Assembly: GCA_024694565.1 (NCBI GenBank)
Contig: JAILJR010000211.1
Coordinates: 1-59,579 of the forward strand
Length of the DNA: 59,579 nucleotides
Source of the DNA: Butyrivibrio sp.
Lineage (GTDB): Bacteria > Bacillota > Clostridia > Lachnospirales > Lachnospiraceae
Direction: 5' to 3'
Made by a program: the position numbers and the translations under genes. Below the pieces are notes generated by a model. It searched no databases. It was not told the origin of the DNA and saw nothing but the letters and a program-made list of their open reading frames with translations. Each line of letters starts with the position of its first letter. Position 1 is the stretch's first letter. Positions 1-56,671 of the stretch are shown piece after piece.

Positions 1-176
1 GCTGTGCATATTGTACAATCACTTCGGGCACGCTTTCGCTCCTTTCGCTTCGTAGCGGTACTAAGCTCGAAAATACCTCGCTAAGTACCGACGAGCTCAT
101 AGGGCCTCTCAGCCTCTTGTGCAATATGCACAGCCGGAGCCGGCCTGGCGAGCTTTTGTCGGACAACTCATTACTC
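1..176. repeat. Nested palindromic element, type A arms plus right C module (left end outside window)
   Basis: The outer arms at 1-18 and 117-134 are complementary with one mismatch (GCTGTGCATATTGTACAA against TTGTGCAATATGCACAGC). Inside lies the core 51-93, whose stem CGGTACTAAG pairs with CTAAGTACCG around an AAAATAC loop. On the right the C module (about 134-172, ending GTCGGACAACTCAT) follows; its left partner would lie before position 1. The same architecture recurs at 20186-20510 and 39782-39981. The remaining stretch 177-321 is AT-rich and shows no convincing gene or terminator. Confidence 0.85.
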
Positions 177-12820: not shown

Positions 12821-12866
12821 AAAAAACGTGGCATTCGGAAAATCAAACACTTCCAAACGCCACGTT
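12821..12866 (-). terminator. Intrinsic terminator of the NHLM exporter operon
   Basis: A 16-bp near-perfect stem (AACGTGGCATTCGGAA at 12825-12840 with TTCCAAACGCCACGTT at 12851-12866) and a 10-base loop is followed, in minus-strand sense, by a T-rich tract. It lies 100 bases beyond the stop of the 12967-15138 gene. Confidence 0.75.
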
Positions 12867-12872
12867 ATTATG

Positions 12873-12950
12873 CGCCGACCTGCAAAAACTCGCCCGGCCG
12901 GCTCTTACTGCGCATATTGTTCAATCGCTTCGGGCACGCCTTCGCTCTGC
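12873..12950. repeat. Left half of a type A palindromic element
   Basis: The sequence runs from a C-like arm (about 12873-12902) into the A left arm CTGCGCATATTGTTCAATCG and the conserved GGGCACGCCTTCGCTC segment, then stops before the core. It reads directly into the 3' end of the exporter gene at 12967. There is no right arm, so this is a truncated copy. Confidence 0.65.
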
Positions 12951-17493: not shown

Positions 17494-17580
17494 AATTCAG
17501 TGGGATAGCCATCCGGAGCAGGCCGGACCAAAGCGAATGTATGGCGGCCCGGCCTGTTCCGGATGGCTGACCACTGAATT
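17494..17580. repeat. Mini type B palindrome
   Basis: The outer arms AATTCAGTGG...GCCATCCGGAGCAGGCCGG (17494-17526) and CCGGCCTGTTCCGGATGGCTGACCACTGAATT (17549-17580, given here by its ends) are complementary over about 32 bp with a few mismatches around a 22-base loop. The arms match type B (48149-48362, 54072-54266), but the core hairpin is absent. It may be a deletion derivative. It sits between the divergent NHLM exporter and formate channel genes. Confidence 0.75.
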
Positions 17581-17659
17581 TCAAAGAATTATGACCTTGT
17601 ATTCTCGCTCTGCAAAACTATATCTTGTATTTTAGAGCATTTTGTAATACCATATAATG

Positions 17660-19350: not shown

Positions 19351-19389
19351 GTTTGTTGTACTATATGCACAGCCACAGCTGACCGGGCG
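19351..19389. repeat. Right-arm remnant of a type A element
   Basis: TTGTACTATATGCACAGCC matches the A right arm (TTGTGCAATATGCACAGCC), followed by a degenerate C-like tail ending GGGCGAC. There is no core or left arm. Confidence 0.5.
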
Positions 19390-19394
19390 ACTTA

Positions 19395-20185: not shown

Positions 20186-20510
20186 ATGAGTCGCCCGACA
20201 AAAGCTCACCAGTCCGGCCCCGACTGTGCATATTGTACAATCACTTCGGGCACGTTTTCGCTCCTTTCGCTTCGTAGCGGTACTAAGGCACCAAAATACG
20301 GTGCCTTAGTACCGACGAGCTCATAGGGCTTCTCAGCCTCCTGTGCATATTGTACAATCACTTCGGGTACGCATTCGCCCCTTTCGCTTCGTAGCGGTAC
20401 TAAGCTCGAAAATACCTCGCCAAGTACCGACGAGCTCATAGGACCTCTCAGCCTCTTGTGCAATATGCACAGCCGGAGCCTGTCTTGCGAGCTTTTGTCG
20501 GCCAACTCAT
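20186..20510. repeat. Tandem double copy of the type A element flanked by inverted C modules
   Basis: Left C module (ATGAGTCGCCCGACAAAAGC..., from 20186) and right C module (ending GCCAACTCAT at 20510) are inverted copies that can pair. Between them are two head-to-tail A units (about 20222-20341 and 20342-20475), each with the GGGCACG/GGGTACG segment and the core. In the first unit the core is a perfect hairpin, CGGTACTAAGGCACC / GGTGCCTTAGTACCG (20278-20292, 20300-20314) with an AAAATAC loop. The first unit lacks its own right arm. The element fills the 364-base gap between divergent genes and ends 20 bases from each start codon. Confidence 0.85.
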
Positions 20511-23099: not shown

Positions 23100-23245
23100 G
23101 TGCGCCCGACGGCGCACGTTTCCCTACTCTTGTTACTATTAACAGTTCATTCGGCCACCTGACTTTACTCCGCTGCACATACGCCCGCTATATCCTGCAT
23201 CTCTCAGGCTTTTTGCAGAGAGAATTGTAACCACAACATTATTTC

Positions 23246-23285
23246 ATGAGTTGCCGGACTGGTGAGCTTTTGTCGGGCGACTCAT
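23246..23285. repeat. Solo C module
   Basis: ATGAGTTGCCGGAC at the left and GAGCTTTTGTCGGGCGACTCAT at the right form a short palindrome whose ends pair. This is the C module seen at the edges of type A elements, here without core. The rest of 23118-23300 shows no gene. Confidence 0.65.
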
Positions 23286-26919: not shown

Positions 26920-26934
26920 ATGGATAACGATGAA

Positions 26935-26990
26935 ATGAGTCGCCGGACAACAGCTCGCCCGGACAGATGAGCTTTTGCCGGACGACTCAT
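26935..26990. repeat. Solo C palindrome upstream of the EAL protein
   Basis: ATGAGTCGCCGGACAACAGCTC (left) and GAGCTTTTGCCGGACGACTCAT (right) pair with a few mismatches. It has no A or B core. It ends six bases before the GGAGG SD of the next gene and so forms a hairpin in the 5' leader. Confidence 0.75.
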
Positions 26991-27008
26991 GAAATGGAGG
27001 TTGGATTC

Positions 27009-29348: not shown

Positions 29349-29410
29349 TTACAATGCAGTTGCCAGCCAGCCGGAGCAGGCCGGAACAAGTGAAAGACTG
29401 AGCAGGGGAG
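29349..29410. repeat. Left half of a type B palindromic element
   Basis: TTACAATGCAGTTGCCAGCC begins an arm matching the left side of the full B element at 54072 (through GAAAGACTGAGC) and stops at about 29410. It has no core or right arm; a second short TATAATTCAG motif follows at 29419. Confidence 0.65.
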
Positions 29411-33392: not shown

Positions 33393-33454
33393 AGAATTCT
33401 CTCCAAAAAGCATTTTTCTCCTGTTCTTTTCATTGCAATCTTCCACAAGTGTTG

Positions 33455-33586
33455 GATCGCTATTATTTCATTCTCACGAAAAGTGCCGGATCATTATTAT
33501 CTCATTCTCAAGAAAATTGCCGAATCACTATTATTTCATTCTCAAGAAAATTGCCGGATCACTATTATTTCTCACGAAAAGTGCGC
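33455..33586. repeat. 34-bp tandem repeat starting in the NusG-II gene 3' end
   Basis: Three units of exactly 34 bp (33455-33488, 33489-33522, 33523-33556) and a fourth of 30 bp (33557-33586, missing CATT) lie head to tail. The consensus is GATCACTATTATTTCATTCTCAAGAAAATTGCCG. The fourth and third units encode the last residues and the stop codon of the NusG-II protein, so the array is an amplification of the gene's own tail. Confidence 0.9.
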
Positions 33587-33965
33587 CAACAATCGTATCA
33601 TATTCATTTTCGCCATCATCCTTCGTGATCTCGATTACGACCCTGTTTGGCAGGCATATCACCGACTGGCCGGTTTTCGATATCCTGCCCATGTTCTCAC
33701 AGAGATGATCAGGACATGAGGAGTCTTTTAAATAAGCATATCCGTCTCTGATCACAAGAGTATTTACTCCACCATTATACCCATTGATAACATATTCGGT
33801 GTCATCTGACAGAGAAAAGGAACCGGAATACTCCCCGTCAATGGATATCTTTACATAAGCTCCATTATCCTGCACCATAAAATAATATGCAGCTATGGCA
33901 GAAAAAATTAAAAGAAGAGCTGCTATGAGATAAAAGTCATTTTTTCTTAACAATCTTTTTTCCAA
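33531..33965 (-). CDS. NusG-domain-II extracytoplasmic protein
   Basis: This 144-residue protein starts with TTG, 5-6 bases behind AAGGAGAG. An N-terminal anchor (~11-30, FYLIAALLLIFSAIAAYYF) leads to a beta-rich NusG_II-type domain with the family's Cys pair (SSCPDHLCENMG) and PNRVVIEI. It lies on the outer side of the membrane. It precedes the Gx transporter gene and is probably functionally linked to it. Its last ~18 residues are encoded by two units of a 34-bp tandem repeat, an odd C-terminal tail. Confidence 0.88.
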   Translation of the reverse strand: MEKRLLRKNDFYLIAALLLIFSAIAAYYFMVQDNGAYVKISIDGEYSGSFSLSDDTEYVINGYNGGVNTLVIRDGYAYLKDSSCPDHLCENMGRISKTGQSVICLPNRVVIEITKDDGENEYDTIVGALFVRNNSDPAIFLRMK

Positions 33966-34000: not shown

Positions 34001-34029
34001 ATCATAACATATTATGAGTTGCCCGACAA
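34001..34029 (-). promoter_or_regulatory. Promoter of the NusG-II/Gx operon whose -35 lies in a repeat module
   Basis: On the minus strand TTGTCG (34024-34029, inside the C module) is 17 bases from TATGAT (34001-34006). The start codon is 36 bases further. The mobile-looking repeat may thus provide the -35 element. Confidence 0.5.
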
Positions 34030-34069
34030 AAGCTCGCCAGTCCGGCTGGCTGACCACTGGATTGCAACC
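34014..34069. repeat. Hybrid C-left / B-right arm element
   Basis: ATGAGTTGCCCGACAAAAGC and the rest of the left C module run straight into GGCTGGCTGACCACTGGATTG, the right arm of a type B element. No core is left. This looks like the product of recombination between different elements. Confidence 0.65.
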
Positions 34070-34074
34070 GGTAC

Positions 34075-34106
34075 GATTATTGTTATCAAGAAGAAAAACA
34101 ATAATC
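34075..34106. promoter_or_regulatory. Perfect 10-bp inverted repeat upstream of the YfhO gene
   Basis: GATTATTGTT and AACAATAATC are separated by 12 bases, 41 bases before the gene start. There is no T-run, so an operator for the YfhO-CotH-VTC operon is more likely than a terminator. The regulator is unknown. Confidence 0.45.
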
Positions 34107-39762: not shown

Positions 39763-39781
39763 ACGCCATGAATCTTAGGAT

Positions 39782-39981
39782 GTTGAGGTCAAAAATCACC
39801 TTGTGTCTCCATGGCTGTGCATATAGTACAATCATTTCGGGCACGCTTTTGCTCCTTTCGCTTCGTAGCGGTACTAAGAGGCCTAGGTACGGCATCCAAG
39901 TAACGACCGCTCACAAGGGCCTCTCAGCCTCTTGTGCAATATGCACAGCCACGGAGCCGCCAGGTGACTTTTGACCTCAAC
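39782..39981. repeat. Type A element with unique outermost arms, plus C fragment downstream
   Basis: The outermost arms GTTGAGGTCAAAAATCACCT (39782-39801) and AGGTGACTTTTGACCTCAAC (39962-39981) pair with one mismatch and are unlike the C module of other A copies. Within lie A arms (39813-39834; 39932-39950) and a degenerate core (CGTAGCGGTACTAAGAGGCC...). A C-like fragment follows at about 39992-40010, and a looser AT-rich dyad AGTTACAATTTTG/CAAATTATAACT at 40020-40071. No gene lies in 39763-40330. Confidence 0.8.
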
Positions 39982-40093
39982 AGCATCTTAAGCGGCCCGA
40001 CAAAAGCTCATCTTTTTATAGTTACAATTTTGTTGTGGGCTGTCTCCAACGGCGGGCAGCAAATTATAACTTTTCAATATCGAAATTTTCCTC

Positions 40094-40270
40094 TTGCATT
40101 TTCTTTTCAAATATGTATAATACATTCTTGTCGGTATTCAACCGGCTGGTATCACAGGAAATTCTTCCTGATGATTTTCCGTTTTTAATTTATATGGCAT
40201 GACGCCGTCTCTTTTTGCCCGTTTATGCCATGTTGATAATGACAGCGGGATTTGCGCTGCAAAAAAGCAG
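40094..40270 (+). promoter_or_regulatory. Promoter and long structured leader of the coiled-coil surface protein gene
   Basis: TTGCAT (40094-40099) is 16 bases from TATAAT (40116-40121). The ~200-base leader has hairpins CAGGAA-attc-TTCCTG (40155-40170), ATGGCAT/ATGCCAT (40194-40231) and CTGC-AAAAAA-GCAG (40257-40270). No known riboswitch was recognised. It may be a regulated leader. Confidence 0.5.
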
Positions 40271-40330
40271 ATCATCTCAGGACTATTTATCAATAAAGTG
40301 CAGCCTGGGATAAACAGAAAGGGAGAGGTT

Positions 40331-43300
40331 ATGAAATTTAAAGGAAAATGGACAAAACAGAACAATTCAGTAAAGCAGCTTCTGAAAAAACTGCGAAGGC
40401 ACGATACGTTTGTTGTGGCGATTGCGGTTGTACTTGCACTGTCGCTTTGTGGGGGACTCATATATCTGAGCACCCCTGTTATTACTGCGGATGCAAGGGA
40501 GGAGCTGGAGCAGGCAGAGCGCGAGAACAGCGACAAGACCATGGAGAAGCTCGACGAGCTGAACAGCTATCTCGATGGGCTGGATAAGTCAGTCACAGAG
40601 AGTAAAAACAGCATCAGCTCTTTTAACGAAAAGAACGAGGAGTCAAAGCTTCTTAGCGAGAAGAATACTGAGAAGATCACAAATACTGTAAATGACAGGG
40701 TTTCGTACCTTGAAAAGGATCTTGATAATCTTCACGGAACTATAGCTGAGACCCGGTCAAACATTGAGAAGCTGAAAGAAACTGTAAGTGAGGGAGACAA
40801 GAAGTCAGCTGAAAAGATAACAGAGAGCTTTGTAGGCATAACCACGGAGCTCGACAGTATACAGAAACAGTACGAGGAGGCTCAGAAGAATTTAAAGGAT
40901 CTCATTGGTGACGTTCAGTCTCTTGTAAAGAGTGAGAACAAGGACCTTTCAAAAGAGATGACAGACCAGAACAGGAATCTCACCGACAAGATGACAGACC
41001 AGAACAGGAATCTCACAGACAAGATGACGGATCAGAACAAGAATCTCACCGACAGGATGACGGATCAGAACAAGAATCTCACTGACAGGATTACTGACCA
41101 GAATAACAGTCTTACAGAGAAGATGACAGATCAGAATAAGAATCTTTCTGACAAGGTGACAGAGAAGAGTAATGACCTGATACAGGAGCTGGCTGATACG
41201 AAGGATGAGCTCGATAAAAAGCTTTCTGGGAATAAGGATGAGCTGTCGCAGCAGGCTAAAGACAATGCGGATAAGGCTTCAAAAGAGCTTTCAGAGACGA
41301 AGGATGCATTGTCAAAGGAGGCTGCTGAAAACACCGACAAGCTGTCCGCTGATCTTAAGGACACAAAGGATTCTCTTTCAAAAGAGCTCACAGACAATAC
41401 CGACAAGCTCTCAGGTGAACTTTCGGATACGAAGGAAGCTCTTTCCAAAGAGCTCACGGACAGCACCGACAAGCTTTCAGGTGAGCTGTCAGATACGAAG
41501 GAAGCTCTTTCCAAAGAGCTCACAGACAATACCGACAAGCTCTCGGGTGAGATGTCGGATACGAAGGAAGCTCTTTCCAAGGAGCTCACAGACAGTACAG
41601 ACAAGCTCTCGGGTGAGCTGTCAGATACGAAGGATGCTCTTTCAAAGGAACTTTCGGACAACAGGGAAGCACTTTCCGAGCAGATGTCTGCTGAACATGG
41701 TGAGCTGTCTCAGGATATGCTTGGATATTACGAGTCACTTCTTTCAGTTCTTAAGGATTCCCAGAAAGCTCTTTCTGACCAGAACAAAGAGATGCTCGAG
41801 CAGTTCAAGACAGATCTTGGGGCATTGAATGCTGAGCTTACAAGGATTTATCAGGAGCTTCATTCAGATATCGATGCAGTCAATAACAGCATCGGAGAGG
41901 TGAACAGCAGCATTGACGGGGTTAACACCAGCATTGACGGAGTGAACAGCAATATTGACGGTGTGAACGACAATATCAATAAAAATATGGATACAGTCAA
42001 TTCCGGCCTCAGCGGAGTAAATGACAACATTTCAGGAGTAAACAACTCTATCCTTGGAGTAAACGACAGCATTTCTGGCGTGAACTCAAGCATCAACGGA
42101 GTCAACAACAGCATCAACGGGGTTAACAGCAGTATCAATGGAGTGAACAGCAGCATCAACGGAGTTAACAACAGCATCAATGGTGTGAACGGCAATATCA
42201 AAAACGTCAATAACAGCATATCAACTGTCAACACAAATATAAACGGTGTGAATAAGAAGATTGACAGTATGAGCAGCAGCATCACTTCCATGAATGGCAG
42301 TGTCAAGGGAGACATCAACGGGCTGAAGACCTTTATCAGTTCAGAGATTGCAGGCGTAAACAAAAAGTTTGATCAGGTTTTTCAGCGTGTGAGTAACGGA
42401 AAGCAGCTTTTGGCATCCGCGTTGCTCACTAAGGGTGTTAACATACGAAAGGATGCCACATTTGAAGAGTTCAGAAAAGCTATCTTAAGCATTCCGGTTC
42501 AGTACAATCTTGATTCCGGCGAAGTGTCCGGAGATATCCAGTACGAATATCATTACCATAAGGACGGAAGGAACACCACCTGCGGATACCTCACAGTAAG
42601 CACAGACAGGAGGGGCGGGTGCTACAACAAGGCTGTAACACATGTACATACGGATTCATGCTATAAAACTGTGACCGAGCATGTGTATTTCACTTATAAA
42701 GATGTTGTGGATACCGAGGAGCGGTATACATCTGATGACGGTATACAGTACACATGGTTCTACTGTCCGCATTGCAATACCCGTTTTCTGGCAACTGACG
42801 GAATTCATATTGAGACGACTGATGATGATACTGTTTATTACAAAAGGGTAACTACAGATATTTCAAGTTCAAGCACCAGAAAGCTCGTGTGCGGCAAGAC
42901 AGAAGGAACTGTAGAAGGGTATGCGCCGTCCTGCGGTTATTCACACGGCCAGGTGATAGCAGCAAAGATTACCTTTGGAGGAACAGGTGTATCTAACAGA
43001 ATGCTGATGGAATCCAAGGCGGCAGTTTCAAGAAAGAGCCTGTCTCTGGACATGCTTATGGCTGACTTTGGGGATGAGAACATCGCTGAATCAAAACTGA
43101 AAGCAAATGATAAAGAAACCGTATCAAAGATCAAATTCGGAGGAACAGGTACAGAAGCGGATTTCCTTACATCGGCTGATGGTATGTCAAAGACTGATGC
43201 ACTAAAGCAAACCGGTTCAGCAGGCAAAAACAGCCTGACACTGACAACAGATTTGTCAGCCGCCGGAAGCTCAGGTGCAGCGGCAGGCTCATCGGCAAAG

Positions 43301-44074
43301 GGCAATTCGAGCACTGTCTCAGGTTCGGTAACTGCAAACATAGGAGCAGCAACCGGAAATACAGGCGCATCTTCAGGCTCATCAGCAGGCGGAAATATGA
43401 GCGGAGCAGCAGGTGCGGCGGCTAATGCAGGAGCAGCAGCCGGAAATACAGGCGTATCGTCAGGCTTATCAGCAGGCGGAAATATGAGCGGAGCAACAGG
43501 TGCGGCGGCTAATGCAGGAGCAGCAGCCGGAAATACAAGCGTATCGTCAGGCTCAACAGCAACCGGAAATATGAGCACAGCCTCAGGTTCGTCAGCCGCA
43601 AATTCAGTTGCACCTTCAGGTTCCTCCAAAACAGAATATTCATCTGCAAATGCAGAGTCATTTACAAATGGAAAACAGTCAGAAGGAAATCTGTCAGATG
43701 CACCTCAAAGCAAGCCCCAGGCAGGAACAGAGTCATTGAAGACATCAATTTCGGATAATGCCGGCTCAACTACTGATAATAAAGATACTCAAAATCAGGA
43801 AGACAAAAACAACAATACAACAGCTGTGAGTCAAAAGAATGCAGAGCTGAATGAAATATCTGACGAGGCAAATATTCCTTCCGAAAATAAAAACATTTCT
43901 GAGACTTCTGCAAATGAGAATGCATTAGAGTACCGGATCATTAATGAATCGGTCGGTGAAAATCAAAGCGTTAGCGATGAACTGTCTTTCGGACAAACAG
44001 AAGGAAATTTTATATCTGTTAATGTTGAAGACCTGTTTGATTTCAATTCTTTCGCACCCGGATCTGATGAATGA
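40331..44074 (+). CDS. Giant membrane-anchored coiled-coil protein with repeat arrays and His/Cys module
   Basis: This 1247-residue protein starts at 40331 (GGGAGAGG SD). An N-terminal anchor (~27-47) precedes ~650 residues of extended coiled coil. Within it six 11-residue units (MTDQNKNLTDK, residues 210-275) and four 22-residue units (starting at residue 352: ELTDNTDKLSG plus ELSDTKEALSK) form hendecads, followed by 7-residue units (GVNSSIN, ~515-645). Next come a possible Zn-binding His/Cys module (THVHTDSC, CPHC, ~730-880) and Gly/Ala/Ser-rich repeats of 29 residues (from residue 1005), ending acidic. Probably it is a long surface stalk or filament. No family is recognised. Unit sizes of 33, 66, 21 and 87 bp keep frame. 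Confidence 0.85.
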   Translation: MKFKGKWTKQNNSVKQLLKKLRRHDTFVVAIAVVLALSLCGGLIYLSTPVITADAREELEQAERENSDKTMEKLDELNSYLDGLDKSVTESKNSISSFNEKNEESKLLSEKNTEKITNTVNDRVSYLEKDLDNLHGTIAETRSNIEKLKETVSEGDKKSAEKITESFVGITTELDSIQKQYEEAQKNLKDLIGDVQSLVKSENKDLSKEMTDQNRNLTDKMTDQNRNLTDKMTDQNKNLTDRMTDQNKNLTDRITDQNNSLTEKMTDQNKNLSDKVTEKSNDLIQELADTKDELDKKLSGNKDELSQQAKDNADKASKELSETKDALSKEAAENTDKLSADLKDTKDSLSKELTDNTDKLSGELSDTKEALSKELTDSTDKLSGELSDTKEALSKELTDNTDKLSGEMSDTKEALSKELTDSTDKLSGELSDTKDALSKELSDNREALSEQMSAEHGELSQDMLGYYESLLSVLKDSQKALSDQNKEMLEQFKTDLGALNAELTRIYQELHSDIDAVNNSIGEVNSSIDGVNTSIDGVNSNIDGVNDNINKNMDTVNSGLSGVNDNISGVNNSILGVNDSISGVNSSINGVNNSINGVNSSINGVNSSINGVNNSINGVNGNIKNVNNSISTVNTNINGVNKKIDSMSSSITSMNGSVKGDINGLKTFISSEIAGVNKKFDQVFQRVSNGKQLLASALLTKGVNIRKDATFEEFRKAILSIPVQYNLDSGEVSGDIQYEYHYHKDGRNTTCGYLTVSTDRRGGCYNKAVTHVHTDSCYKTVTEHVYFTYKDVVDTEERYTSDDGIQYTWFYCPHCNTRFLATDGIHIETTDDDTVYYKRVTTDISSSSTRKLVCGKTEGTVEGYAPSCGYSHGQVIAAKITFGGTGVSNRMLMESKAAVSRKSLSLDMLMADFGDENIAESKLKANDKETVSKIKFGGTGTEADFLTSADGMSKTDALKQTGSAGKNSLTLTTDLSAAGSSGAAAGSSAKGNSSTVSGSVTANIGAATGNTGASSGSSAGGNMSGAAGAAANAGAAAGNTGVSSGLSAGGNMSGATGAAANAGAAAGNTSVSSGSTATGNMSTASGSSAANSVAPSGSSKTEYSSANAESFTNGKQSEGNLSDAPQSKPQAGTESLKTSISDNAGSTTDNKDTQNQEDKNNNTTAVSQKNAELNEISDEANIPSENKNISETSANENALEYRIINESVGENQSVSDELSFGQTEGNFISVNVEDLFDFNSFAPGSDE

Positions 44075-44185: not shown

Positions 44186-44229
44186 TTGTAGTAGCGATAT
44201 AGCACGGATATGTGCAGATTGGAGTGGAT

Positions 44230-45489
44230 ATGACAAAGATAGATATAATTTCCGGCTTTTTGGGAGCTGGTAAAACTACTCTTATAAAGAAGCTTTTAAA
44301 AGAAGCTCTCGCCGGAACAAAGGTTGTTCTTATCGAGAATGAATTTGGTGAGATCGGAATTGACGGTGGTTTTCTTAAGGAGTCAGGTATTGAGATTACC
44401 GAGATGAATTCGGGATGTATCTGCTGCTCGCTTGTAGGTGATTTTGAGACATCACTCAAGCAGGTTATGGAGCAGTATGCACCTGAGAGGATCCTCATTG
44501 AGCCATCTGGTGTTGGTAAGCTTTCAGATGTCATGAGAGCTATCCAGAACATTGCTGACACTGATGACAACATGGAGCTTAACAGTGCAGTTACAGTAGT
44601 TGATGTTTCTAAGGCAAAGGTGTATATCAAGAACTTTGGAGAGTTCTTTATCAACCAGATTGAGAACGCCGGGACAATCATACTTACAAGAACTGATAAG
44701 GCTGACCAGAAAAAGATTGAGACTGCAGTGGAGCTCATCCGCGAGCATAACAGCAAGGCTACCATAATAACTACACCTCTTGACCAGATAACAGGAAAAG
44801 AGATACTTGATACCTTTGAGGGGAATAACGACCTTGAGGCTGAGCTTTTGAAGCTCGTTATGGAGGCTAAAGAAGAGCATCATCACCATCATCATGATCA
44901 CGGCAGTCACAAGACTGTAGCAGAGGACGGTTCCGTAGTTTACAGTGCACACCACGACCATGATCACGACGAAGATCATGAACACGAGCATGAACACGAC
45001 CATGATGAACATGATCATGACCACGATCACGAGCACCATCACGACCACGATGACCACGATCACGAGCACCATCACGACCACGATCACGAGCACCATCACG
45101 ACCACGAAGATCACGACCACGAGCATCACCACGACCACGATGACCACGACCATGATCATCACCATCATCACGATGATCACGACCATGAGCACCATCATCA
45201 CCACGATGCTGACGACATATTCATGAGCTGGGGTATGGAGACACCTCTTAAGTACACAGCTTCTGAAATCGGGGACATGCTCTCAAAGCTTGAGGACGAA
45301 GAGGAGTATGGTATTGTTCTTCGTACTAAGGGAGTGGTTCCTTCTGAAGACGGCTCCTGGATTGAGTTCGACTATGTTCCCGGAGAATCGGATGTCAGAA
45401 AGGGAGCTCCTGATGTGACCGGTAAATTCTGTGTAATAGGTTCCGGGCTTAAGGAAAAGAATCTTGAAAAGCTTTTTAGGAGACTGTGA
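44230..45489 (+). CDS. CobW/G3E-family GTPase with very long His-rich metal-binding region
   Basis: This 419-residue protein starts at 44230 (GGAG, five bases upstream). The GTPase core has P-loop GFLGAGKTTL, ENEFGEIGID, the metal-binding GCICC, and a TRTD guanine motif. Residues ~215-326 are an insertion almost entirely of His, Asp and Glu (HDHDHDEDHEHEHEHD-like); it is far longer than usual and should bind many zinc or nickel/cobalt ions. The C-terminal CobW_C domain (~335-419) is intact. Family members insert metals into proteins (ZNG1-like). The partner gene follows 59 bases on. Confidence 0.92.
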   Translation: MTKIDIISGFLGAGKTTLIKKLLKEALAGTKVVLIENEFGEIGIDGGFLKESGIEITEMNSGCICCSLVGDFETSLKQVMEQYAPERILIEPSGVGKLSDVMRAIQNIADTDDNMELNSAVTVVDVSKAKVYIKNFGEFFINQIENAGTIILTRTDKADQKKIETAVELIREHNSKATIITTPLDQITGKEILDTFEGNNDLEAELLKLVMEAKEEHHHHHHDHGSHKTVAEDGSVVYSAHHDHDHDEDHEHEHEHDHDEHDHDHDHEHHHDHDDHDHEHHHDHDHEHHHDHEDHDHEHHHDHDDHDHDHHHHHDDHDHEHHHHHDADDIFMSWGMETPLKYTASEIGDMLSKLEDEEEYGIVLRTKGVVPSEDGSWIEFDYVPGESDVRKGAPDVTGKFCVIGSGLKEKNLEKLFRRL

Positions 45490-46655: not shown

Positions 46656-47579
46656 ATGTTTAATTACCTTCCAATACAATGGCTGTTTCTGTTTTTTTTC
46701 TACAGTTTTTTTGGTTGGTGCTTTGAATCGACATATGTCTCCATAATGGAGAAACATCTGGTAAACAGAGGGTTCATTCGTGGACCCTTTTTGCCGTTAT
46801 ATGGGTGCGGGGGCATAATGATGCTCATTGCTTCAAAACCATTCTACGACAATGTTCTGCTCGTATTTATAGCGGGGTGCATCGGAGCTACAGCGCTCGA
46901 GTATATAACCGGCGTTGTGATGGAGAAGCTTTTTGGAGTCAGATATTGGGATTACTCGCACAAAAAATTCAATTTTCAGGGACAGATCTGTTTAGAATCT
47001 ACAATAGTGTGGGGAGTGTGTACCGTAGTTTTTACCCATTATATGCAGATTCCCATTGAAATGATAATAATGTCGATCCCATACAATATCATGACGGTTG
47101 TAGTGGTGATCGAGACGATCATATTCAGCGCAGATTTTGCCATTGCATTCAGAACGGCGCTGGATATCAGGGATGTGCTGATGTATATGGAAAGAGCCAA
47201 GTCAGAGATGGCGAGAATGCAGAAACGCCTCGACGTGCTTATCGCATTTAAGGGCGAGGATGTAAAGGAAGGTATCGGATCCAGAATGGGAGGGATCAAC
47301 AACAGGATTGATGCTCTCAGCAATTCTCTGGAGTCCTCTTTTAACATTATCAAGCAAAAGATGGCAGTTGATCCCGGAGCATATGTGAGCAGGGCGAGAG
47401 ATGAAGTAACAGAGCTTTACGCAAGGTATCGTGTCGTTATGTCCAGGTTCACTCCCGCACCGGTGAAGAGCATCTATACATGGTACAGAAACAGGACCAT
47501 TGCCGGAAATCCCACAATGTCATCAACAATGTACAAAGCCAGCCTTGAAGAACTCAAGGAACGCACAAAGGAAAGCTGA
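46656..47579 (+). CDS. Putative ABC transporter permease (CmpB-like, PF06541 type)
   Basis: This 307-residue protein has six predicted transmembrane helices in the first ~190 residues and a helical cytoplasmic tail. The motifs FFGWCFESTYVS, NRGFIRGPFLPLYG and WDYSHKKFNFQGQICLEST are hallmarks of the family annotated as putative ABC transporter permease, whose transport role is unproven. I chose 46656 because GGGGGAT lies upstream; an in-frame ATG at 46593 has no SD. Its stop codon starts a 12-bp tandem repeat. Confidence 0.88.
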   Translation: MFNYLPIQWLFLFFFYSFFGWCFESTYVSIMEKHLVNRGFIRGPFLPLYGCGGIMMLIASKPFYDNVLLVFIAGCIGATALEYITGVVMEKLFGVRYWDYSHKKFNFQGQICLESTIVWGVCTVVFTHYMQIPIEMIIMSIPYNIMTVVVVIETIIFSADFAIAFRTALDIRDVLMYMERAKSEMARMQKRLDVLIAFKGEDVKEGIGSRMGGINNRIDALSNSLESSFNIIKQKMAVDPGAYVSRARDEVTELYARYRVVMSRFTPAPVKSIYTWYRNRTIAGNPTMSSTMYKASLEELKERTKES

Positions 47580-47667
47580 AAAAGCTGGAATAAAAGCTGA
47601 AATAGAAGCTGGAATAGAAGCTGGAATAAAAGCTGAAATATAACCTGAAATAAAAACTGAAATAAAA
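47575..47667. repeat. 12-bp tandem repeats starting at the stop codon
   Basis: Seven exact-length 12-bp units (consensus GCTGAAATAAAA, 47584-47667) follow a 9-base partial copy that contains the last codons and TGA of the CmpB-like gene (47575-47583). Most copies repeat the TGA-like CTGA. The units are not open in any useful frame. Confidence 0.85.
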
Positions 47668-47674
47668 GCAAATT

Positions 47675-47711
47675 AAAAGACCTCATGCCGGTGAGAGACA
47701 TGAGGTCTTTT
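47675..47711. terminator. Bidirectional terminator between convergent genes
   Basis: The stem AAAAGACCTCATG / CATGAGGTCTTTT (13 bp) with an 11-base loop has T-rich sequence on both sides, so it can stop transcription from the CmpB-like gene and from rpsT. Confidence 0.85.
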
Positions 47712-48148: not shown

Positions 48149-48405
48149 TTACAATTCAGGTTACCATTCAGTGGTCAGCCAGGTCAGGACAGCCCGCCGC
48201 AAATGTAAGTCTGCCCAGGGTGACGCTCTCGCTCTGTGAAAAACGTAGCGGTACTAAGCGACCAAAGTACGGCCGCTAAGTACCGACGTTTTTCAAAGCA
48301 CCCTGGCTCAGCCTTTCATTTGCTCTGGTCTATCCTGACCTGGCTGACCACTGAATGGTAACAAATTCGGGGTACAATTCAGCCTGCAGCCAGCCCGGGA
48401 CTGGC
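48149..48405. repeat. Full type B palindromic element plus extra left arm
   Basis: The outer arms 48160-48185 and 48337-48362 (GTTACCATTCAGTGGTCAGCC...) are perfectly complementary over 26 bp. The core (CGTAGCGGTACTAAGCGACC, loop AAAGTAC, GGCCGCTAAGTACCGACG) and the flanking segments GACGCTCTCGCTC and CTCAGCCTTT match type A elements. An additional B left arm (TACAATTCAGCCTGCAGCC) follows at 48372-48405. It lies in the 441-base gap between rpsT and lepA, which holds no gene. Confidence 0.85.
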
Positions 48406-51468: not shown

Positions 51469-51485
51469 CCATAGACTTCTTTTGC

Positions 51486-51535
51486 AAATTGCACAGCCTG
51501 AGCTGGCCCGGCGAGCTTTTGTCGGGCAGATCATT
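51486..51535. repeat. Right half of a type A element with C module
   Basis: GCAAATTGCACAGCC (degenerate A right arm) continues into GGCGAGCTTTTGTCGGGCAGATCATT (C module). There is no left half. It ends eight bases before the AGGAGG SD of the next gene. Confidence 0.65.
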
Positions 51536-54006: not shown

Positions 54007-54071
54007 CCATTTTTATGTGCCGACGTGGTAACATAAAATAGAAAAAGTTACAATTAAGCGATAATCCTGCT

Positions 54072-54266
54072 ACAATTCAGCTGACAGCCAGCCGGGGCAG
54101 GCCAGAGCAAGTGAAAGGCTGAGCCGGGGTGCCTTGAAAAACGTCGGCACTTAGCGCACGTACTTTGGGCGCTTAGTACCGCTACGTTTTTCACGGAGCG
54201 AAAGCGTCACCCCGGGCAGACTTACACTTGCGGCGGCCTGCTCCGGCTGGCTGGCAACTGAATTGT
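54072..54266. repeat. Full type B palindromic element, inverted orientation
   Basis: The arms ACAATTCAGCTGACAGCC... (54072-54103) and GGCCTGCTCCGGCTGGCTGG... (54235-54266) are complementary over 32 bp with a few mismatches. The core on the minus strand reads CGGTACTAAGCGC-CCAAAGTACG-TGCGCTAAGTGCCG. It is oriented opposite to the 48149 copy and lies between the divergent GGDEF and HD genes. Confidence 0.85.
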
Positions 54267-55475: not shown

Positions 55476-56537
55476 ATGTCGCGGATAGAAGATATTCTTA
55501 AGGAAGCAAAGGAGAGGGGAGCGTCAGATGTTCACATCACAGTCGGACTTCCTCCCAAGGTAAGAGTTCATGGCAAGCTTGTTCCGCTTGAGAGCTACGG
55601 CAAGCTCCTGCCGCCGGACACCAGGGAAATTGCATCAGAGATCATGAGCGAAAGACAACAGCAGCTTCTTGAGCAGAACGGGCAGCACGATATGTCTTTT
55701 TCAATCCGCGGTGTAGGAAGATACAGGGTAAATGTATTCAGGCAGAGGGGCTCGATCGCAATGGCTTTCCGTATTGTGGCAACTGAGATACCAAGCTCTC
55801 AGGAGCTGGGCATCCCTGACACTGTCATGGATCTTTATCAGAAAAAGAGAGGTCTTGTTCTTGTAACAGGACCGACCGGTTCAGGAAAATCAACCACGCT
55901 GGCGTCCATTATCGACAAGATAAACAACAACCGGGATGCTCATGTAATCACTCTTGAGGACCCAATTGAGTTTACATATCAGCACAGGCTTTCGATAGTT
56001 AACCAGAGGGAGATAGGAACAGACTCCAACAGCTATGCAAGCGCGCTCAGAGCTGCTCTTCGTGAGGACCCTGACGTAATCCTCGTGGGAGAGATGAGGG
56101 ACCTTGAGACAATAAGTACAGCCATCACAGCAGCTGAGACCGGCCATCTTGTTCTTTCCACTGTTCATACTATCGGAGCTTCCAACACGGTGGACAGGCT
56201 TATCGATGTATTTCCGTCACATCAGCAGCAGCAGATCAGGATACAGCTTGCAGGTGTTCTTGAGGCAGTAATCTGTCAGCAGCTGATCCCGGCAGTTGAT
56301 GGTATATCCAGACTGGCAGCATTTGAGGTACTTCATATCAACTCCGCGGTCAGAAATCTGATCAGAGAGGGAAAGTCACATCAGCTCATCACCTACATGC
56401 AGACCTACAGAAAGCAGGGCATGATAACAATGGATGAGGCAATCCTCGAGCTGTACAGGGCACAGAAGATCACAAGAGAGGCGGCACTTCAATTTGCGCA
56501 GGATCCTGATATTATGCAGAACAAGATGCTGAGGTGA
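55476..56537 (+). CDS. pilT: Type IV pilus retraction ATPase PilT
   Basis: This 353-residue ATPase has the PilT N-terminal PAS-like domain (DVHITVGLPPKVRVHG), Walker A GPTGSGKSTTLASI, the Asp and His boxes (ITLEDPIEF, LSTVHTIGAS) and AIRNLIREGKSHQ-type segment (AVRNLIREGKSHQLIT). It drives pilus retraction and twitching. No pilus assembly genes are in the window. The last codons NKMLR-stop start a 31-bp tandem repeat. Confidence 0.95.
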   Translation: MSRIEDILKEAKERGASDVHITVGLPPKVRVHGKLVPLESYGKLLPPDTREIASEIMSERQQQLLEQNGQHDMSFSIRGVGRYRVNVFRQRGSIAMAFRIVATEIPSSQELGIPDTVMDLYQKKRGLVLVTGPTGSGKSTTLASIIDKINNNRDAHVITLEDPIEFTYQHRLSIVNQREIGTDSNSYASALRAALREDPDVILVGEMRDLETISTAITAAETGHLVLSTVHTIGASNTVDRLIDVFPSHQQQQIRIQLAGVLEAVICQQLIPAVDGISRLAAFEVLHINSAVRNLIREGKSHQLITYMQTYRKQGMITMDEAILELYRAQKITREAALQFAQDPDIMQNKMLR

Positions 56538-56671
56538 GCAGGTTATTTTGAATAAGATGCTGAGGTGAGCGGGGGATTCGGAATAAGATACTTAGGTGAG
56601 CAGGTTATTTTGAATAAGATGCTGAAGTGAGCGGGGTATGCAGAATAAGAAGCTGAGATATGTAAGATAAG
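56519..56671. repeat. 31-bp tandem repeat starting at the pilT stop codon
   Basis: Five units lie end to end (56519-56549, 56550-56580, 56581-56611, 56612-56642, 56643-56671), with consensus GAATAAGATGCTGAGGTGAGC plus ten variable bases. The first contains the last pilT codons and TGA. Units one and three share GGTTATTTT ends, units two and four GGGG ends, which suggests duplication of a two-unit block. No terminator is evident in 56672-56771. Confidence 0.88.

Follow-up and report, generated by a model that had tools for sequence, protein, structure and literature searches.

The DNA analysed here (the window) is a stretch of 59,579 nt from Butyrivibrio sp. (assembly GCA_024694565.1, contig JAILJR010000211.1, forward strand). 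A sequence-only reading had described nested palindromes with a common core at five places within it. A repeat search for direct and inverted families, followed by cmsearch with a covariance model (R1), found such palindromes at all five, together with remnants:

1-171, plus strand: type A element, cut by the left window edge; core at 22-111, followed by the right inner and outer arms up to 171 (71.9 bits)
12864-12947, plus strand: type A left-arm remnant extending into the first core bases (direct repeats, 90% and 67%)
17558-17595, plus strand: possible type B remnant, weak (direct repeat, 66%)
19356-19390, plus strand: probable type A right-arm remnant, weak (direct repeat, 80%)
20186-20510, plus strand: type A element with tandem cores at 20244-20335 (81.7 bits) and 20361-20450 (55.7 bits)
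23245-23285, no strand assigned: type A palindrome without a core, which probably arose by deletion (inverted-repeat search)
26930-26995, no strand assigned: 52-bp palindrome without a core (26937-26988), ends of type A, 7-bp direct repeat ATGAAAT on both sides
29351-29407, minus strand: type B half-element remnant (inverted repeat, 84% complementary)
34013-34078, plus strand: remnant, type A left end fused to type B right end (direct-repeat search)
39781-39982, plus strand: type C element; core 39835-39926 (48.5 bits), outer arms TGTTGAGGTCAAAA
48149-48362, plus strand: type B element; core 48215-48306 (99.9 bits)
51480-51534, plus strand: type A right-arm remnant (direct-repeat families)
54071-54266, minus strand: type B element; core 54124-54215, minus strand (96.1 bits)

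All five had been counted as full elements, but the one at 1-171 is not, because the window edge cuts it, and what had been called a double copy at 20186-20510 is two tandem cores within a single outer-arm pair. The elements are about 150-210 bp long and have no coding capacity, containing chance frames only. The host genome has three outer-arm types: A, B (TTACAATTCAG...) and C (TGTTGAGGTCAAAA...). The core and inner arms of the type C element are akin to those of type A (83% over 93 nt) and its outer arms are different, so that types A and C have related inner arms and cores inside differing outer arms; it is possible that a core-plus-inner-arm unit became nested into other palindromes. Elsewhere in the window, 40199-44074 is a 1291-aa open reading frame that contains long coding repeats of 21 bp and 33 bp and probably specifies a repetitive protein of coiled-coil or surface type, and the open reading frame at 44212-45489 contains a His/Asp/Glu-rich 12-15-bp coding repeat (44867-45204) whose predicted product could bind metal. 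Three non-palindromic tandem arrays lie at 33437-33605 (34-bp period), 47570-47677 (12 bp) and 56514-56668 (31 bp).

The sequence-only reading advised a search of the host genome and its relatives, and many further copies were found. The host bin (G000; 3.47 Mb in 249 contigs, 82% complete) has at least 61 core copies, given by 61 exact matches to TAGCGGTACTA-N12-28-AAGTACCGACG, and 153 matches to the type A end GAGTYGCCCGACAAAAGCTC (up to two mismatches), with none for either reversed control; these numbers indicate recent expansions that include the arms. Many contigs of the bin end inside copies. Among 200 Lachnospiraceae genomes, one per genus, model R1 matched 88 (E ≤0.001), leaving 112 genera without a match at this sensitivity; 14-40 candidates were scored per genome, so that copy numbers, which differ widely between genomes, are lower bounds. 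A class-wide draw of 291 genomes gave seven matches, all Lachnospiraceae; the draw includes at least 10 Lachnospiraceae, and 264 of its non-matching genomes were not itemised by name. A GTDB contig scan returned at least 103 matching stretches, and among the 80 titles listed, 77 name Lachnospiraceae, Butyrivibrio, Lachnoclostridium or Agathobacter, one an uncultured Eubacterium and two just a bacterium. Carriers include the isolates Butyrivibrio hungatei DSM 14810 and Butyrivibrio sp. M55. As far as tested, then, the element is limited to Lachnospiraceae. A phage or plasmid origin was rejected, as two patterns had no match in the viral contigs scanned, the plasmids scanned had none either, and two phage-labelled records with the element are chromosomal by gene content. 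Tandem triplets of elements occur in genome G150, with periods of 187 bp (L232, 1463-1884) and 164 bp (L234, 1156-1531).

The core is an asymmetric structure of ~85 nt with a single conserved fold and conserved unpaired motifs. In the orientation of the sequence-only reading it runs from GACGCTYNCGCTC through a lower stem, the bulge AG, the stem CGGTACT, an A-A mismatch and P4, a hypervariable stem of 6-7 bp, to the apical loop AAARNAC and the return strands. Covariation was assessed on an alignment (A1) of 31 of the 33 located copies, in which the side hairpin is in correct register; in model R1 the side-hairpin pairs are off by one column, at positions that are nearly invariant. Double changes were present at 21 of the 30 core pairs. 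They amount to 143 double-change cells, compared with a mean of 42.6 (sd 5.2) in shuffled alignments, none of 500 being as high, and with 23-51 when the partners were slid out of register. The paired changes that had been reported beside the loop are therefore real, and covariation is far beyond both controls. With many further copies found as well, neither of the outcomes named as refuting by the sequence-only reading occurred. The unpaired motifs were counted in 54 aligned copies, the remainder of 60 R1 matches after removal of six that were antisense or weak. The bulge is AG in 45 of these, AA in six and TG in three, the A-A mismatch is kept in 50 and the loop fits AAARNAC in 49. The statement that the loop is always CAAAATAC or CAAAGTAC-like thus applies to most copies but not to the core at 39835, the most degenerate one (48.5 bits), whose loop is TAGGTAC. 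On folding as single-stranded DNA, both strands of three copies were far stronger than shuffles (z -7.3 to -14.0).

The arms around this core pair without sharing sequence. Left and right arm pair (score ≥14) in 121 of the 131 distinct copies with enough flank; the left arm of one copy and the right arm of another reached that score in 3 of 130 tests, and the arms of non-redundant copies have weak composition trends at most. The inner arm often ends at a fixed length of about 30 bp: of 75 non-redundant copies, 39 have an inner arm that stops 46-54 nt left and 37-46 nt right of the core marks. Outer arms continue beyond it in some lineages, for example the GCGAAACTC type in several genera; terminal inverted repeats are common within types A, B and C and some lineages, not family-wide. 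Arm mismatches comprise 123 G-T and 141 A-C (p 0.30) alongside 4214 Watson-Crick pairs, and the consensus arms of seven multi-copy families hold 235 Watson-Crick, 4 G-T, 0 A-C and 16 other pairs, with 141 low-support pairs set aside. RNA under selection for pairing is expected to hold more G-U on its own strand; the similar numbers of G-T and A-C and the paucity of wobbles look like pairing at the level of DNA, not of a one-strand RNA. As a separate observation, genome G146 contains a duplicated pair of inverted elements (L230 and L231) whose members share core and P4 and have very different arms.

Target-site duplications were established for one arm type, A, in one genome. Duplications of 7-8 bp (one mismatch allowed) flank 14 of 22 type A elements, among which are four without a core (52-62 bp); shuffles gave a mean of 1.9 and at most 7. 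Exact duplications of at least 6 bp flank 10 of the 22 (mean of 1.0 and at most 5 in shuffles). In a mixed set of 121 copies, direct repeats of at least 6 were found in 16, hardly above the shuffled value of about 8. The perfect fold-back flank of L005 is probably an artefact of a contig end and was disregarded. The type A flanks of L003 and L017 in the host bin look reciprocal, with ATTGCAT and ATATTTAT swapped, which suggests inter-copy recombination or an assembly join. B. hungatei (G265) has an element at two sites, L271 and L272, that are empty in G001 and G457. The empty sites corresponding to L271 are without any arm. At L272 a 17-nt palindrome is kept in G001 and absent from G457, an ambiguous situation that may reflect insertion into, or deletion from, a palindrome. 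Comparison of G008 with G012 gave two further sites, with both arms missing when empty; filled sites thus differ from the empty sites of relatives by a whole element with its two arms. We rejected the idea that the arms are copied from the target site, since neither arm is seen at three empty sites; in this respect L272 is ambiguous. Taken together, target-site duplications and empty orthologous sites favour a mobile element. Across L272, G265 goes from 91% to 99% identity with contig C15 of G001, a step that suggests a recent recombination event whose breakpoint lies at the element site.

Ten orthologous elements are common to B. hungatei (G265) and G001. Summed over these, identity is 91.5% in the flanks, 95.8% in the cores and 84.9% in the 30-nt arms. 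At two or three of the sites the two arms have diverged in concert. At L275/L283 the flanks are 94% and the core 95% identical and the arms 48% and 55%, and at L266/L281 the flanks are 91%, the core 100% and the arms 65% and 71%; in both cases the arms pair within each species. L277/L287 has a core identity of 75% and arm identities of 84% and 74%. At L269/L284 the arms are 74% identical and those of one partner pair poorly, a difference that looks like decay, and the other six pairs have arms that are 90-100% identical. Decay is apparent also in the G265 ortholog of L286, where half of the core is lost, and as 20-bp end remnants. Among copies that are 75-98% identical, pairing-preserving double changes in the arms are about tenfold above independence, a figure drawn from copies that are not themselves independent; the 60-75% identity bin of this comparison is unreliable. 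Because template switching, in its known form, rewrites one arm per event, it does not fully explain this two-sided turnover.

The elements are intergenic, at a median distance of 62 nt from the neighbour's stop codon, and no orientation bias to genes was detected: in other genomes 44 and 32 copies are co-directional (p 0.21), 11 are in divergent and 10 in convergent regions and 14 are unplaced, and in the host bin 3 and 6 are co-directional, 4 divergent, 1 convergent and 6 unplaced. Recurrent neighbour genes were not found, the largest protein cluster touching 3 of 53 loci (one locus entered twice). No autonomous transposon was noticed among the first 100 of the 153 type A end matches or beside close copies. 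A gene carried between neighbouring copies was considered and is not favoured: at L060 the arms of the two copies around a gene differ, and other close copies are tandem or inverted. Of 88 carriers and 112 non-carriers, the Y1 transposase family was found in 47 and 69 (p 0.25) and reverse transcriptases in 46 and 69 (p 0.20), neither being associated with the element; a reverse-transcriptase partner is not supported by this distribution, and no reverse transcriptase was found in the host bin (82% complete). RAYT-like genes of about 256-264 aa, at L078 (contig C41) in the host bin and L077 (contig C18) in G001, adjoin short repeats of their own, around GGGACGGTTCTTTTGACT and ATGAGCCCTAGGGACGG, respectively, which form a separate palindrome system. 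No core was found in 30.7 kb of RAYT regions of the two genomes. A RAYT/REP partner was rejected on these grounds, on the Y1 distribution and on the state of the GTAG foot, which is not unpaired: its T position pairs as T-A in 48, C-G in 5 and A-T in 1 of 54 copies.

Our preferred reading, to which we assign a probability of about one half, is that these repeats are a new family of non-autonomous, MITE-like mobile DNA hairpins recognised through their folded core. The sequence-only reading had offered a MITE-like element or a structured RNA; duplications and empty sites support the former, and the latter is kept as a rival. It had also taken changes that keep pairing to imply selection on a folded DNA or RNA. 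Covariation and the conserved unpaired motifs agree with that conclusion, although pairing changes alone are no proof, because template switching between inverted-repeat arms is a known process, outlined in portions of PMC8604942 and PMC7202029, that also homogenises such arms; the conserved unpaired motifs are the better sign of selection on the folded strand. We propose that a transposase or recombinase encoded elsewhere would recognise the core as a folded single strand, presented as a cruciform or a replication-fork hairpin and hence more likely DNA. The arms would then serve as structure and not as sequence signals. Hairpin-templated copying would account, at least in part, for their continued complementarity and would allow the two arms to change around an unchanged core and between unchanged flanks. 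We also consider, tentatively, a more specific proposal in which the folded core, with its GNRA-type loop, bulge, mismatch and apical loop, is the sole shared signal, the arms can consist of any palindromic sequence, both being rewritten at once, and the unit is moved by a Lachnospiraceae enzyme on an attC-like principle. A point against the mobile-hairpin reading is that no transposase or recombinase going with the element was found among Y1 transposases, reverse transcriptases, RAYTs or neighbour genes. Further points against it are the lack of a family-wide arm sequence, the restriction of demonstrated duplications to one arm type in one genome, the GNRA rule discussed below, the two-sided turnover of the arms and the palindrome at L272.

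A structured RNA would be read from the strand opposite to that of the sequence-only reading, as a long hairpin with a GNRA-capped side hairpin, and could be a non-coding RNA gene or an RNA-mobilised (SINE-like) element; we regard this as unlikely, yet deserving serious weight. On the reverse strand GACGCTYNCGCTC becomes a mini-hairpin GC-GNRA-GC. All 75 non-redundant copies have a GNRA loop there, as do 129 of the full 131, and none has GNYA. The 131 copies were picked with two patterns, one for the core and one for an AAARNAC-like loop, which makes loop counts in this set partly circular. Tetraloop counts escape this circularity, apart from a preference of the tetraloop caller for G first and A last. 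A fixed-register check found a purine as the third tetraloop base in 74 of 74 copies found, one copy not being found. A rule of purine, never pyrimidine, at this base suits an RNA tetraloop better than DNA loops. The two closing pairs of the side hairpin have double changes in 8 of 131 copies, and in the 31-copy set the side-hairpin pairs vary on one side only. Conservation of unpaired positions while stems vary would likewise fit an RNA. On the other hand, arm G-T and A-C mismatches are equally frequent, P4 has 335 Watson-Crick pairs and just 8 G-T or A-C cells, and the G-T excess of the core would put the wobbles on the strand other than that of the GNRA loop. In the orientation of the sequence-only reading, the core helices have 21 G-T, eight of them from one pair, versus 9 A-C, an excess of which part may stem from misregistered rows carrying extra T, and the side hairpin has 18 versus 4. 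The evidence on strand chemistry thus conflicts, with the GNRA rule pointing to reverse-strand RNA, the core G-T excess to the other strand and the scarcity of wobbles to DNA. The absence of orientation bias and the reverse-transcriptase distribution also speak against an RNA, as does Rfam 15, which gave no window match at gathering score and a single match, at chance level, in five other loci (17.3 bits, the cut-off being 100).

A host DNA site of REP/BIME-like or chromosome-organising type, with a core bound by a host protein and copies that are spread and retained for their function, seems improbable to us. Conservation of the core across many genera, and its retention at the 10 sites in two species with cores more alike than flanks, would be expected of such a site; its absence, at this sensitivity, from 112 of 200 genera, the widely differing copy numbers, the duplications and species-specific insertions, and the ortholog that lost half its core would not. 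Intergenic hairpins close to stop codons could also act as transcription terminators or mRNA-stabilising hairpins, which we judge very improbable: copies are as frequent in divergent as in convergent regions, both orientations occur, and one copy (in a phage-labelled record with chromosomal gene content) separates two ABC-transporter ATPase genes of what appears to be one operon.

If the mobile-hairpin reading is correct, a dominant gut and rumen family holds a widespread repeat, present in 88 of the 200 genera sampled, and the enzyme that moves it would be worth finding. Since orthologous copies have both arms diverging around a kept core, the repeat would offer natural tests of the origin and persistence of long palindromes, of folded-DNA recognition and of template-switch evolution. 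It also breaks short-read assemblies, as seen from the host-bin contigs that end inside copies.

In the titles and abstract openings of one open-access library, no description of this repeat family was found. Bacterial MITEs, including the Correia elements of Neisseria, are short, non-coding elements with inverted ends and target-site duplications, and the present elements resemble them in these features and in being dispersed intergenically. They differ from MITEs in having a conserved centre between ends of unlimited variation, the arms (the would-be terminal repeats) having no common sequence family-wide, and in that no parent transposon was noticed among the type A end matches listed or beside close copies. 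The REP/REPIN sequences of RAYT transposases, as covered in parts of PMC3733652, are imperfect palindromes with GTAG by the main hairpin, present in many copies and in some cases nested in longer palindromes, all of which is similar here. However, the T of GTAG is base-paired in the present family and changes together with its partner in 6 of 54 copies, the RAYT genes of the host and G001 adjoin other repeats with no core near, and the element is about 150-210 bp long. CGTC-tagged REPs and palindromic repeats without a known transposase, in the same parts of that source, are likewise mobile-looking palindromes with no known enzyme, but are 20-40 bp long and from other phyla. Integron attC sites belong to gene cassettes, whereas the elements here have no cassette and have target duplications; the likeness is one of principle, in that, according to sections of PMC3053210, the shape of the folded strand and its extrahelical bases are recognised while the stems vary.
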